From IMG/VR virus record IMGVR_UViG_3300005515_000625, positions 1 to 26,328 of that record: a stretch of 26,328 nucleotides of DNA. One strand, written 5' to 3'. Positions 6,811-17,026 of the stretch are shown here, in pieces. Source of the DNA: a virus. The notes under the pieces were generated by a model, which made no database searches, was not told the origin of the DNA, and saw only the letters and a program-made list of their open reading frames with translations. The translations under genes were made by a program, and so were the position numbers. Within the stretch, counting starts at the first letter, position 1. Each line of letters begins with the position of its first letter.

Positions 6811-7461
6811 ATGGAAGCTGCGATACTCGAAGAACGCACCGATGGCGTCACGCTCATTAACGGCAAGGAATTCATGACCGATGCGAAGGGAGCATACGTG
6901 CCGCTCTCGCTGGTGAAACCCCAGCACAAACTGGAAGACGAGACTGTCAGGAAGATCATCAATTTTGCGATTGACGTCAGTGCACAGATCGCCCGGTTCC
7001 GAGGCCATACAATGACCGACCTTGGCAGTCTTGACGCGTTGATCGCCCAGGAATACGGCGCCAAGATCGGTGGCGCCAAGGGGAACCGAACGTATCAGAC
7101 GATCGACGGACTGATGAAGGTCCAAGTGCAGGTAGCCGAGCAGATCGACTTCGGATCGGAGCTGCAGGTCGCGAAATCTATCATAGACGAATGCCTGACC
7201 GAGTGGTCGGCGGATAGTCGCGCAGAGATCCAGTCCATAATCACTCGCGCGTTCAATACGGACAAGGAGGGAAAGATCAATCGCGCCGAAATCTTCATGC
7301 TGTTGCGTCATCAGATCGAAGATCCCCGCTGGCAGCGAGCCATGGATGCGATCCGTGACGCAATGCGCGTGACCGGGTCTAAGGAATATGTTCGTTTCTA
7401 CCGGCGAAAGACTATCGCCGAGGCGTGGCAAGCCGTTACTATCGACATGGCAAAGGCTTAG
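6811..7461 (+). CDS. DUF3164 family phage protein
   Basis: 216 residues matching the DUF3164 family common in Mu-like phages: a short N-terminus (FMTDAKGAYVPLSLVKP, about 22-38), a long helical middle with RFRGHTMTDLGSLDALIAQEYG, a conserved GGAKGNRTYQTIDGLMKVQV region, and a C-terminal part containing MRVTGSKEYVRFYRR. The biochemical role is unknown; the gene sits in the early/replication block, usually near gemA. Here gemA is displaced by about 1.6 kb because two opposite-strand genes lie between. AACAGG precedes the ATG. Confidence 0.85.
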   Translation: MEAAILEERTDGVTLINGKEFMTDAKGAYVPLSLVKPQHKLEDETVRKIINFAIDVSAQIARFRGHTMTDLGSLDALIAQEYGAKIGGAKGNRTYQTIDGLMKVQVQVAEQIDFGSELQVAKSIIDECLTEWSADSRAEIQSIITRAFNTDKEGKINRAEIFMLLRHQIEDPRWQRAMDAIRDAMRVTGSKEYVRFYRRKTIAEAWQAVTIDMAKA

Positions 7462-7473
7462 GGGCGTCGGATG

Positions 7474-8178
7474 TTATCGTTCAACTCCGTACCTTTTGGC
7501 AGTTGCCGAAAGCAGCTCAACGATTACGGGGAGTTCATCGGCAAGCTTGATTATCTGTCCGTAGAGATAGTTCACGCGAAAATATCCATCTTGATCATCG
7601 AGAGCAAAGCTGGGCGCGGTGTATCGACTCCCTCTCGAGAAGGTCTCAAGAAGCGCCTGAGCTTCCTTGCTGTTTTCGCGGAGCCAATGCAGTTTGTAGG
7701 TCAGAATGCCGTCGAAAAGGCGGCTCCCCTCTACCAGTTGTGCCCGTTCGAGAAGAGCGACAAGGTCTCGGCACGACGTCTCAACCCAATAGGCTTCTTG
7801 CACAATCAAGCCGAGCTGACCGCGAAGAGTATTTATCTTGAGCATCTCGGTTTTCAGCCTAGCGAATGCATAACCCGCCTGAGAAAGCCCCAGTACCTGA
7901 GGGTAGACTGCGCGCTCCACTGCGAGCCGATCGCTCCGCAGCGAAAGCTCAACAAGTTGGGCGTGTCGCTCTCCCTGTCGCGCATCCGTCTTTTCCATCA
8001 CCGAGATGGTCCATGTGGCGGCTCCGACAGCAGCGAGGCCTGTGATCAATGTCTGATAATCCGACACGAACTTTCCCCAGGGATCCCCGATGCCACCTGC
8101 TACGGCAGGTATAAGAAGCGCGGTGGCAACTACCAGAATCGCTGCGGCGAGGATCCGTCCTCGATTTGTCTTTGGCAT
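7474..8178 (-). CDS. Membrane protein, paralog of its upstream neighbour (unknown; likely moron)
   Basis: 234 residues. Two transmembrane segments are predicted near the N-terminus (about 8-30 and 41-61), then a soluble, helical C-terminal domain of about 170 residues. Residues 41-93 (LITGLAAVGAA, then RHAQLVELSLRSDRLAVER) closely match the same region of the gene at 8263-9054, so the two are paralogs. GGAGGAA lies just before the ATG. It points against all surrounding genes, and the DNA is less G+C-rich (one sampled 60-base line is 50%). Similar TM-plus-RH-motif proteins occur as unannotated proteins in Rhizobiales, from memory. Function unknown; superinfection exclusion or defence is a guess. 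Confidence 0.75.
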   Translation of the reverse strand: MPKTNRGRILAAAILVVATALLIPAVAGGIGDPWGKFVSDYQTLITGLAAVGAATWTISVMEKTDARQGERHAQLVELSLRSDRLAVERAVYPQVLGLSQAGYAFARLKTEMLKINTLRGQLGLIVQEAYWVETSCRDLVALLERAQLVEGSRLFDGILTYKLHWLRENSKEAQALLETFSRGSRYTAPSFALDDQDGYFRVNYLYGQIIKLADELPVIVELLSATAKRYGVER

Positions 8179-8230
8179 TCAGTTCCTCCGGCCACTGCCA
8201 CTAAACTACAGGCGCGCTGTGAAGCGCCCT

Positions 8231-8244
8231 GCCATTGCAATGGC
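8231..8244. repeat. Perfect 14-bp palindrome in the gap between the two membrane genes
   Basis: GCCATTGCAATGGC is perfectly palindromic and lies 52 bases upstream of the start of the gene at 7474-8178, in the 84-base gap behind its paralog. It is a candidate operator. It has no loop, so an RNA hairpin would be short. Confidence 0.45.
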
Positions 8245-8262
8245 GATGTAATTCTCGGCGTA

Positions 8263-9054
8263 TTAGATATTTGTTCCGAGAGCATAGCCCTCGGACAAAT
8301 AGAGGTCAGCGAGGGCACTAAGTCCCTGTCGCACCTCCTCCAGGCAATTTTTAAGAAGCTGAGCTCTGATCATCATGCTTTTGAGATCACTCTGGACGGC
8401 AACGAAAATCGTCACCTCAGGTTCGCCTTCTTTGCTCTTGTTTCGAATTTCTTCCATGAGGTTTTGGGCTGCCGCCCGAAGGTGGTTGGCTCTGTACTGC
8501 GCGTCTTGAAAATCGATCGCAAGCTTGCCGTCGAAGAGCTCGTAGGCTTCTTTCATCTGTGGGTTGTTGAGATAATGAGTGAGGAAATTCACGCAGTTCT
8601 CTACTTCGGATACAAAGAGCATTTGGCTCCCAACGTCATCAAGACCGGTCCGGGAGATAATGCTACCCAACTCTGCTATTGCCCGGATGATGGATGGCAG
8701 GACGGGCCCAACAAGCCTGCTGACTTTCAATCGATCCGACCTCAGCGTCAACGCCATCATTTGGCGGTGCCGCCGCTCGCTTTCTCGCTCTATTTCTCGG
8801 GCCAGAGCGAGAGCGTTTTGCGACTGTCTTTGAGATTGCTCATGTCGAAACTGTGCAGCCTCGTCAGTCCTTTCCATGGTCCGGATGGTCGCATCCATTT
8901 TCCCGATAGTGATACTTGCGGCGAAGACAGCGGCCAGTCCGGTTATCAATCCCTGAAACTCACGTATCCAGGCCTGGAAAACCGGAAATGCGAAGGTCCC
9001 GGCAAGCATGCCGACCGCCCCGCCTACCAGGCTCCATTTCAGATAACGCCCCAT
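8263..9054 (-). CDS. Membrane protein with coiled coil, paralog of the following gene (unknown; likely moron)
   Basis: 263 residues from the ATG at 9054, which has a GGGGG ribosome site; a longer form from 9114 would overlap gemA and is less likely. Two transmembrane segments (about 8-29 and 33-52) are followed by a charged coiled coil (about 55-97) that the paralog lacks, then RHRQMMALTLRSDRLKVSR at 95-113, shared with the neighbour, and a helical C-terminal domain. First gene of a leftward two-gene unit; its promoter must lie in or near the 5' end of gemA, where no clear -35/-10 pair is seen. Function unknown; a membrane-anchored host-benefit or exclusion role is inferred only. Confidence 0.75.
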   Translation of the reverse strand: MGRYLKWSLVGGAVGMLAGTFAFPVFQAWIREFQGLITGLAAVFAASITIGKMDATIRTMERTDEAAQFRHEQSQRQSQNALALAREIERESERRHRQMMALTLRSDRLKVSRLVGPVLPSIIRAIAELGSIISRTGLDDVGSQMLFVSEVENCVNFLTHYLNNPQMKEAYELFDGKLAIDFQDAQYRANHLRAAAQNLMEEIRNKSKEGEPEVTIFVAVQSDLKSMMIRAQLLKNCLEEVRQGLSALADLYLSEGYALGTNI

Positions 9055-9092
9055 AAGAATCGCCCCCAGCGCATTTCGAACGGAATCATCGC

Positions 9093-9767
9093 ATGACCGC
9101 CTCGATCGCTGCAATCCATGTTGCTAAGAAGCATCTCGGCCTCGACGACGATACCTACCGCGCCAAGCTTGAGCGTATTACGGGCAAGCGTTCCGCCAAA
9201 GACATGTCCGAGGCCGAGCGTGAGAAGGTTTTATCGGTCTTTAGAAACGAGGGCTTTATCAAAGCCCCCGCAGCCCGTCGGATAGGAGGGCGTCAAAAGC
9301 TGACAGGTAAATATGCCAAGAAGCTGCAGGCGCTTTGGATCGCCGCCTGGAATCTCGGCATCGTTCGCGACCGCGACGACAAGGCGCTTATCGCATTTGT
9401 GAAACGTCAGACCGGCATCGATCACACGCGCTTCCTCGTCTACGCCGACGATGCCAGGCGCGCGATCGAGGCGCTAAAGGGCTGGATCAATCGCGAGGCC
9501 GGCGTCTCCTACGGCAACACAAACGGCTATGACTGGCTGGCGGCGGATGGCGCAAAGGTCGCCTGGGCGCAATGGAAGGTCCTGACGCCAGGCGCGGGTC
9601 TCTTGGTCCGCAAAGGCTTCGACAGCGAAGTGGCAAAGCTGACAGGCAGGGCCATGCTCCAGGAGGTCGCCGCCGCCGACTGGCAGATCGTCATGAACAG
9701 CTTCGGTGATCGCATCCGTGCGGGGAGGGGCCGATCCGGCGACCTGCCCGTTTCACGAGGAGCATGA
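9093..9767 (+). CDS. gemA: GemA-like regulatory protein (Mu gp16 family, DUF1018)
   Basis: 224 residues. The N-terminal 150 residues match GemA: IAAIHVAKKHLGLDDDTYRA at about 5-24, then TGKRSAKDMSEAEREKVL, then KLQALWIAAWNLGIVRDR and the FVKRQTGIDHTRFL segment. In Mu, GemA (gp16) changes host gene expression and DNA supercoiling and is cotranscribed with mor. The start is 38 bases from the divergent membrane gene. The stop overlaps the next ORF. The C-terminal 70 residues are less conserved. Confidence 0.88.
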   Translation: MTASIAAIHVAKKHLGLDDDTYRAKLERITGKRSAKDMSEAEREKVLSVFRNEGFIKAPAARRIGGRQKLTGKYAKKLQALWIAAWNLGIVRDRDDKALIAFVKRQTGIDHTRFLVYADDARRAIEALKGWINREAGVSYGNTNGYDWLAADGAKVAWAQWKVLTPGAGLLVRKGFDSEVAKLTGRAMLQEVAAADWQIVMNSFGDRIRAGRGRSGDLPVSRGA

Positions 9768-15419: not shown

Positions 15420-17026
15420 TGGCTTCATTTCGTGACTGGTTGGGCCGTGTCGTTCTCGGCCGCGAGCTGATGGAGCAGGTTGCCGAGGGACGCATCGGGA
15501 GCGTTCGCAATCCGTATTCCGGCCATCCGGCGGACGGCATGACGCCGCAGAAGCTCGCCGGCATTCTTCGCTCCGCCGCCAACGGCGAACCGGAGCCTTA
15601 CTTCGAACTCGCCGAGGACATCGAAGAGCGCGACCTTCATTATGCCGGCGTGCTCGGGACTCGGAAGCGATCGGTGGCCCAGCTCCCGATCACGGTCAAG
15701 GCCGCCTCGGACAGTGCCGAACACCAGAAGCATGCCGCCCTGGTCCAGTCGTGGCTCGATGACGAAATCCTGCAGGCCTCGCTTTTCGACATGCTTGACG
15801 CGATCGGCAAAGGTCTCTCCGTCATGGAAATCGACTGGCAGTATCGCCTCGGCAACATGCTGCCACGTGAGCTGACCTGGAGGACGCAGCGCTGGTTCAC
15901 CTTCGATTATAACGATGGCGAAACCGTTCTGCTGCGCGAGGGCGTCTCCGGCATCGAGCTGCCGCCACATAAGTTCATCATCCATCGCCACAAGCAGAAG
16001 TCCGGCCTGACGATCCGTGCCGGCATTGCCCGCGTGGCTTGCTGGGCGTGGATGTTCAAAGCCTTCACCGTGAAGGACTGGGCGATCTTCTGCCAGAATT
16101 TCGGTCAGCCGATCCGTATAGGCAAATATGGACGCGGCGCCACCGAGGCGGAGAAGGACGTACTCTGGCGCGCCGTCAGCAGCATTGCCGGCGACTGCGC
16201 TGCGATCATCCCACGCGAGATGCTGATCGAGCTTACGGAAGTCGGCTCCAAGGGCACCACGACGGATATGTATGAACGCCGTGCTGACTGGCATGACCGG
16301 CAGGTCTCCAAGCTCGTCCTCGGCCAGACGGCGACGACGGATGCCATTGCGGGCGGCCATGCGGTCGGGAAAGAGCATCGCCTCGTCCAGGAAGATATTG
16401 AGCGGGCTGATGCCAGGTGCGTTTCGTCGACGCTCAATGAGCAGATCATCCCCAACATCGTCGCCTTCAATTTCGGGCCGCAGGATCACTATCCGAAGGT
16501 GCGCGTCGGCCGTCCGGACGAAGTGCCACTCGGCGAATTTGCCGAGGCCTTTGACAAGCTCGCTTTGCACGGTCTGACAGCCGAGGAGAGCTACCTGCGC
16601 GACCGTATGGGCATCCCGGCGCCGAAGGCCGGCGCCATCCTGGTCGGCGGCCGCAAGCCTGAGGCTGCGCCAAGCGCAGATCCTGCAGCTGTGCCGCCGG
16701 CAAAGAAGGGCAGGCCGGAAAAGACCGTTCATTCGGCCTTCAATCATCTCTTCAAGTCGACGCATGCGAAATCTGCCAACGATATCGTCGTCGACGAATT
16801 GGCCGCCAAGCTTGAGCGAGATGCGGCCGGCGCGCTCGGCGGGATGGTCGACCAAGTTAAAACAGCACTGATGCAGGCCACCGATTTGAGGGACGCGGCC
16901 GAGCGTATCGCCAAGCTCGATCTAGAACCGGATGCGCTTGCCGAGGCGATGGCGCGCGGCATGGCGCTGGCGCATCTTGCAGGCCAGGCCACGCTGATCG
17001 ACGACCTCAGGAGTGCCGATGAATAG
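15419..17026 (+). CDS. Portal protein (DUF935, Mu gp29-like)
   Basis: 535 residues, the usual size for DUF935 portals. Typical segments are DWLGRVVLGRELMEQV near the start, YFELAEDIEERDLHYAGVLGTRKRSV (about 60-85), FHKIIHRHK-like KFIIHRHKQKSGLTIRAGI in the middle, and KDWAIFCQNFGQPIRIGKYG. Twelve copies form the ring at the head vertex through which DNA enters and to which the tail joins. The C-terminal 130 residues are helical and variable. ATG at 15419 overlaps the terminase TGA; the next gene begins inside its last codons. Confidence 0.92.
   Translation: MASFRDWLGRVVLGRELMEQVAEGRIGSVRNPYSGHPADGMTPQKLAGILRSAANGEPEPYFELAEDIEERDLHYAGVLGTRKRSVAQLPITVKAASDSAEHQKHAALVQSWLDDEILQASLFDMLDAIGKGLSVMEIDWQYRLGNMLPRELTWRTQRWFTFDYNDGETVLLREGVSGIELPPHKFIIHRHKQKSGLTIRAGIARVACWAWMFKAFTVKDWAIFCQNFGQPIRIGKYGRGATEAEKDVLWRAVSSIAGDCAAIIPREMLIELTEVGSKGTTTDMYERRADWHDRQVSKLVLGQTATTDAIAGGHAVGKEHRLVQEDIERADARCVSSTLNEQIIPNIVAFNFGPQDHYPKVRVGRPDEVPLGEFAEAFDKLALHGLTAEESYLRDRMGIPAPKAGAILVGGRKPEAAPSADPAAVPPAKKGRPEKTVHSAFNHLFKSTHAKSANDIVVDELAAKLERDAAGALGGMVDQVKTALMQATDLRDAAERIAKLDLEPDALAEAMARGMALAHLAGQATLIDDLRSADE

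Follow-up and report, generated by a model that had tools for sequence, protein, structure and literature searches.

Phage 80alpha of S. aureus shows a noncontiguous operon, the Tha/ith module, in which a small inhibitor, ith, is nested antisense in the cI operon, and this layout parts lysogenic immunity from lytic growth (PMC11087260). The ambigrammatic narnaviruses, small RNA viruses of eukaryote hosts, avoid the codons UUA, CUA and UCA and show a codon-aligned reverse frame that is open over nearly the whole segment; translation of this frame is needed, its product looks unconstrained and the act of translation itself appears important (PMC6884476, PMC8316113, PMC8155312). The B3-like Pseudomonas phage Fc02, a transposable phage, contains the opposite-strand overlapping genes olg1 and gene 10 at its lysis-lysogeny region, both of which give superinfection exclusion (PMC9936078). 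Here we describe two adjacent membrane protein genes, A and B, which lie reversed inside the early operon of a Mu-like phage contig, the IMG/VR record IMGVR_UViG_3300005515_000625 (positions 1 to 26,328; this whole stretch of 26,328 nucleotides is called the window), and which leave a single stop-free frame on the operon strand.

The cassette shares with the Tha/ith module an antisense gene contained in a phage operon. The two differ in that ith is nested in the cI operon, whereas the genes nested here are candidate defence genes and their operon is the lytic one, and in that the families are unrelated; the available part of the Tha/ith report describes neither stop avoidance in the antisense frame nor translation through the nested gene (PMC11087260). 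The narnaviruses and the cassette avoid the same three codons, but the phage genome is double-stranded DNA, the trait is limited to operon-nested genes, there are junctions to the flanking genes and the open frame has an obvious use. Fc02 is also a transposable phage with opposite-strand genes, but these are near the repressor and not between DUF3164 and gemA, they are small and unrelated, and codon avoidance is not reported in the accessible portion (PMC9936078). A literature search among open-licence papers found no prior report of stop avoidance in phage operons.

The A/B cassette and the frame opposite to it

The cassette lies between MuA/MuB and the later operon genes, and it is contained with its surroundings, 100% identical, in a 38-kb IMG/VR contig. 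Gene B (8263-9054, minus strand) is the first of the reversed genes and encodes a membrane protein of 263 amino acids counted from an ATG, with a possible alternative TTG start upstream at 9114. Gene A (7474-8178, minus strand) is the second and encodes, from an ATG, a membrane protein of 234 amino acids; a Shine-Dalgarno-like GGAGGAA can be read upstream of it (8183-8189, minus strand). Both belong to one family, here called 'DYQTLITG', and the original prediction, made from the DNA letters alone, had rightly taken them for adjacent leftward paralogues (BLASTP 50 bits, E 5e-12, or 2e-6 when the whole record is searched). Its description of the place holds as well: the pair splits the DUF3164 gene (6811-7461, plus strand; PF11363, E 4e-70) from gemA (9093-9767, plus strand; PF06252, E 5.9e-34), every core neighbour is on the opposite strand, and the G+C content of A and B is 0.51-0.57 versus about 0.60-0.64 around them. 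The locus has, as a noncontiguous operon does, an opposite-orientation gene inside an operon.

That prediction did not remark on the pass-through, or ambigrammatic, frame (7471-9096, plus strand), which is 541 amino acids long, stop-free, and codon-aligned antisense to A, B and the gaps around them. A stop in this alignment arises wherever the sense strand has TTA, CTA or TCA as a codon, and gene A and gene B each contain 0 of these codons. At the start of the frame (7460-7473, plus strand) a Shine-Dalgarno-like AGGGG overlaps the DUF3164 stop codon TAG (7459-7461) and is followed by an ATG (7471-7473), with 9 nt between this stop and the start codon. At its end the TGA stop overlaps the ATG of gemA in an ATGA (9093-9096, plus strand), a coupling-type junction. 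The tight gene spacing, together with the stop-free frame, suggests that the flanking genes are co-transcribed through A and B. The junctions recur elsewhere: in most loci the start codon is at most 13 nt from the DUF3164 stop, often overlapping it, and the frame ends in NTGA on the start of gemA or, where present, of an intervening operon gene. L106 has a single CTA; it precedes the DUF3164 stop, in a stretch that is still being translated as DUF3164, and no constraint is expected there.

Codon avoidance in nested genes

After dereplication, the 51 nested genes of the family contain two aligned stops in 12,388 codons, and the other two operon-strand frames contain 443 and 620. Family members outside such operons show 68 aligned stops in 2,240 codons (87 and 114 in the other frames), and repressor genes from comparable phages, which share the strand of the nested genes but not their operon, show 32 in 1,206 codons. 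The codon usage of the flanking operon genes leads to 73 expected stops in the 43 genes with flanks, where one was observed (Poisson P about 1e-30). Within the nested genes themselves, an A is found at the third position of two of the 1,250 codons of the four-fold serine and leucine boxes (Ser4 and Leu4), versus 851 of the 4,368 codons of the other four-fold boxes. An independent sample of 11 family genes, found only through DUF3164, contains no aligned stop in 2,618 codons (87 and 135 in the other frames), and avoidance by the backward gene holds across more than 60 relatives. These genes show the two marks of ambigrammatic coding: a sense frame without TTA, CTA or TCA over the gene, and an openness beyond codon usage and composition. 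Judged by these counts, the stop-free pass-through frame is almost certainly under selection.

In the family tree, stop-bearing relatives from outside the operons are interleaved with stop-free nested ones, and well-supported branches force at least four changes; for example, L031, with nine stops, groups with L030 and L047, with none (support 100/94). The stop-free property follows place and not lineage.

A second, undescribed family with two transmembrane helices and the motif WVGALSGW is nested among DnaB, primase, methylase or DUF3164 genes at 11 viral loci. It shows one stop in the aligned frame, which precedes the probable real start of L214, and 54 and 128 in the other frames. In three of its cassettes there are also HNH enzymes that match type IV methyl-directed restriction enzymes (PADLOC, 1e-19 to 2e-13); their 846 codons include no aligned stop. 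The isolated Rhizobium phage RHph_TM3_3_3 contains a reversed relative of this enzyme, EVB37_077 (L219, 4001-4816), with no aligned stops and exact junctions on both sides; plasmid-borne relatives have six, four and zero. By this codon evidence, stop avoidance is not peculiar to one family, as two unrelated nested families, one of them that of the type IV restriction enzyme, share the trait.

The WVGALSGW family (L205-L215; L179, 5376-6092; L061, 5530-6321) has a different C-terminal domain and occupies the same kind of reversed slot, which in L207 and L211 is that between DUF3164 and gemA. The reversed type IV HNH enzymes are at 4128-4997 in L205, 5841-6650 in L208 and 2907-3773 in L213; in each, as in EVB37_077, the opposite frame is free of stops and the junctions are ATGA or GTGA. 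A relative of the type IV enzyme on the Azospirillum brasilense plasmid NZ_CP059450 (L217, about 2001-2885), in a context that is possibly a prophage, shows no antisense stops in 294 codons.

The proposed ribosome passage and the rival explanations

Bacterial RNA left untranslated is open to Rho, and for this reason polarity would be expected from the 1.6 kb antisense stretch in the early message. We consider it quite probable, taking the explanation as a whole, that A and B are accessory prophage defence genes, antisense-nested in the lytic operon and kept ambigrammatic for ribosome passage to gemA. While the early promoter is repressed in the lysogen, A and B could be made from their own strand, and on induction the early transcript would cross them antisense, shutting them down. 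Because their leucine and serine codons are never TTA, CTA or TCA, ribosomes arriving from the DUF3164 side could keep translating in one open frame from end to end of the cassette and pass to gemA at the ATGA overlap. The early message would in this way get as far as gemA, mor and the late switch; the ribosome cover on the RNA would avoid Rho-dependent polarity and couple translation. Translation of the frame is very likely on this evidence, and protection from Rho together with coupling is the likely reason for its openness. The frame probably serves as a path for ribosomes and not to encode a conserved protein.

One rival holds that the open frame merely reflects GC-rich codon usage, in which TTA, CTA and TCA are rare in any case. 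The window does contain other long antisense open reading frames (ORFs), such as one of 476 amino acids at 15425-16855, and the flanking genes use the three codons at only about 0.6%; but even this usage predicts the 73 stops of which one is seen, and the nested genes, with a G+C content at third positions of 0.59 versus 0.76, have AT-richer third positions and should contain more of these codons. The flank, repressor and outside-operon controls rule this artefact out, and we give it practically no weight. A further rival takes the plus-strand ORF at 7471-9096 for a functional operon protein, with A and B either constrained by it in dual coding or artefacts. The ORF is indeed fitted like a gene, starting beside the DUF3164 stop and overlapping gemA by ATGA. 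However, the divergence between A and its relative in L040 is 74/49/121 at codon positions 1/2/3, with which other pairs agree, and 63 of the 92 single changes between them are silent for A and 17 for the opposite ORF. Switching between CAA and CAG at conserved glutamines, silent on both strands, is at 0.499, in effect no more than that of lysine (0.483) or glutamate (0.476) codons. It follows from the codon switching and the divergence that what is conserved is the openness of the opposite frame, not its protein. The homologues outside operons retain the A/B protein and not the opposite frame, the A protein folds confidently in the model (predicted local distance difference test, pLDDT, 90.6), and the opposite ORF has no family match. 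The codon-position divergence and the double-synonym codons rule out the plus-strand ORF as a real gene, and dual coding is very improbable.

The two remaining rivals concern the reason for the openness and the role of A and B. Stops might be avoided because antisense translation itself silences A and B on induction, the ribosomes and RNA polymerase displacing or masking their message. The convergent layout and the lysogeny/lysis switch logic of Tha in S. aureus phages (PMC11087260) agree with this, but transcription alone would silence the genes even if the frame contained stops, and the exactness of the ATGA overlap suggests that it is the downstream genes that benefit; we regard it as unlikely. 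As to their role, A and B are somewhat favoured as phage-exclusion or defence proteins of the inner membrane, a view that draws on their variability, place and company. The alternative, that they are regulators of the membrane or lysis programme of the phage itself or other lysogenic-conversion proteins, is a lesser possibility: the architecture with two transmembrane helices is generic, A and B match no defence family and the defence role is predicted only. Against it stand the optional, fast-diverging character of cassettes at fixed core sites, their position away from the lysis genes, the type IV restriction enzymes of the sister cassettes, and the company of relatives outside Mu-like phages, some of which lie in other phages, on the strand opposite to the early genes around them (L045, L061), while others adjoin integrases, resolvases, hsdM, or a gene with TIR and receiver domains that matches SpbK. 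The moron and exclusion idea of the original prediction is strengthened by this optional cassette, its fixed place and its defence-type company, and is left without a match to any catalogued defence family. The relatives were also examined for a mostly single occurrence at housekeeping loci, and this is not their distribution. The orientation of the cassette fits expression from a repressed prophage.

Several observations weigh against ribosome passage through defence genes as set out here. The codon tests, made on dereplicated genes, treat codons as independent. The frame ends without an exact overlap at three loci (L037, L054 and L064); L036 retains one TTA within the frame, and the stop that it creates is followed after a few bases by a start codon; and L109 has two aligned stops, at a contig end where DUF3164 is undetectable and the gemA start is broken, in an apparently decayed copy. 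A short reversed gene of RHph_TM3_3_3, EVB37_075 (92 amino acids), has one aligned stop. There is no clear sigma-70-type promoter for the cassette: scans for promoters and terminators found no more than in shuffled sequence, with a slight rise only in the promoter score (7.49 versus 7.03). No fold or family match gives A or B a function, PADLOC matches neither of them, and defence-family matches are limited to stray single members.

Beyond this locus we lean, with some reserve, towards a general and undescribed device shared by GC-rich temperate phages, in which lysogeny genes are placed antisense in lytic operons and recoded as ambigrams, the encoded protein being meaningless and ribosome transit (anti-polarity, coupling) the function. 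If this is true, depletion of TTA, CTA and TCA is a sequence-only detector of nested defence genes, and gene callers should take into account that a long antisense ORF in such a position may truly be a path of translation. The device would join noncontiguous operons with ambigrammatic coding, give ambigrams a mechanical purpose in DNA genomes, namely ribosome passage through an opposing gene, and answer how a phage stores always-on defence genes in a later-transcribed operon without Rho cutting the message.

Distribution, structures and relatives

About 45 dereplicated Mu-like phages and prophages, many of them in Rhizobiaceae, have the same reversed cassette, of one gene or two, in the slot between DUF3164 and gemA. 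The scans gave 31 viral loci, nearly all of them reversed between DUF3164 and gemA, and nine genome loci, mostly of Rhizobiaceae; 30 of 395 genomes of that bacterial family contain it. In a survey from DUF3164 alone, the family occupies the slot in 23 of 80 loci. Among 54 gaps between DUF3164 and gemA without the A/B family, a search for other reversed families found mostly ordinary forward small genes and one clear reversed gene with two transmembrane helices (L179). The pair, which the original prediction treated as a possible unit, recurs at this locus in Sinorhizobium phage Aussie, in the same place and orientation, and in several other phages, but it is not obligatory, as many phages show a single copy. 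In phages whose MuA/MuB are 93-99% identical to those of the window, A is only 32-59% identical. The cassette thus has the character of an accessory gene, variable at a fixed place in otherwise conserved phages.

In both A and B, two membrane helices at the N-terminus are followed by a cytosolic part that is helical, and the AlphaFold2 models are all-helical and confident. The model of A shows a first transmembrane helix at 3-27, a helix at 33-91 formed by the second one and a stalk, and then a C-terminal helical bundle. That of B (pLDDT 88.1) is similar, with a poorly modelled N-terminus. The coiled-coil insertion, which had been assigned to the upstream gene only, is indeed confined to B and is modelled as a single helix of 110 residues (24-134). 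The C-terminal domains, described as different, are divergent but not unrelated: an LFDG motif is common to both and the alignment extends to residue 189 of A. Searches of profile libraries found no convincing match for the family in Pfam, NCBIfam, PHROGs, PADLOC or PDB sequences, and Foldseek against PDB or BFVD gave nothing with E below 1e-3. SLATT and other effectors of bacterial conflict systems with two transmembrane helices also show two N-terminal helices followed by a cytosolic helical part; they differ in that profile support within the A/B family is limited to one weak NCBIfam SLATT_1 match (E 8e-4) among 39 members, with no Pfam SLATT match.

Three observations concern relatives outside Mu-like phages. 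In L031 (Rhizobiales bacterium AFS025817, UBQW01000031; 6986-8756) the family gene overlaps, by ATGA, a gene with TIR and receiver domains (PADLOC spbK, 6e-19), possibly as a two-gene defence operon outside phage early operons. L120 and L121, near hsdM and near a phage integrase, show stop-free opposite frames ending in ATGA, and these genes are probably nested in operons of other mobile elements. A distant possible member outside Rhizobiales, in Sphingomonas formosensis (L038, 6836-7726), adjoins type IV-secretion-like (VirD4-like) genes.
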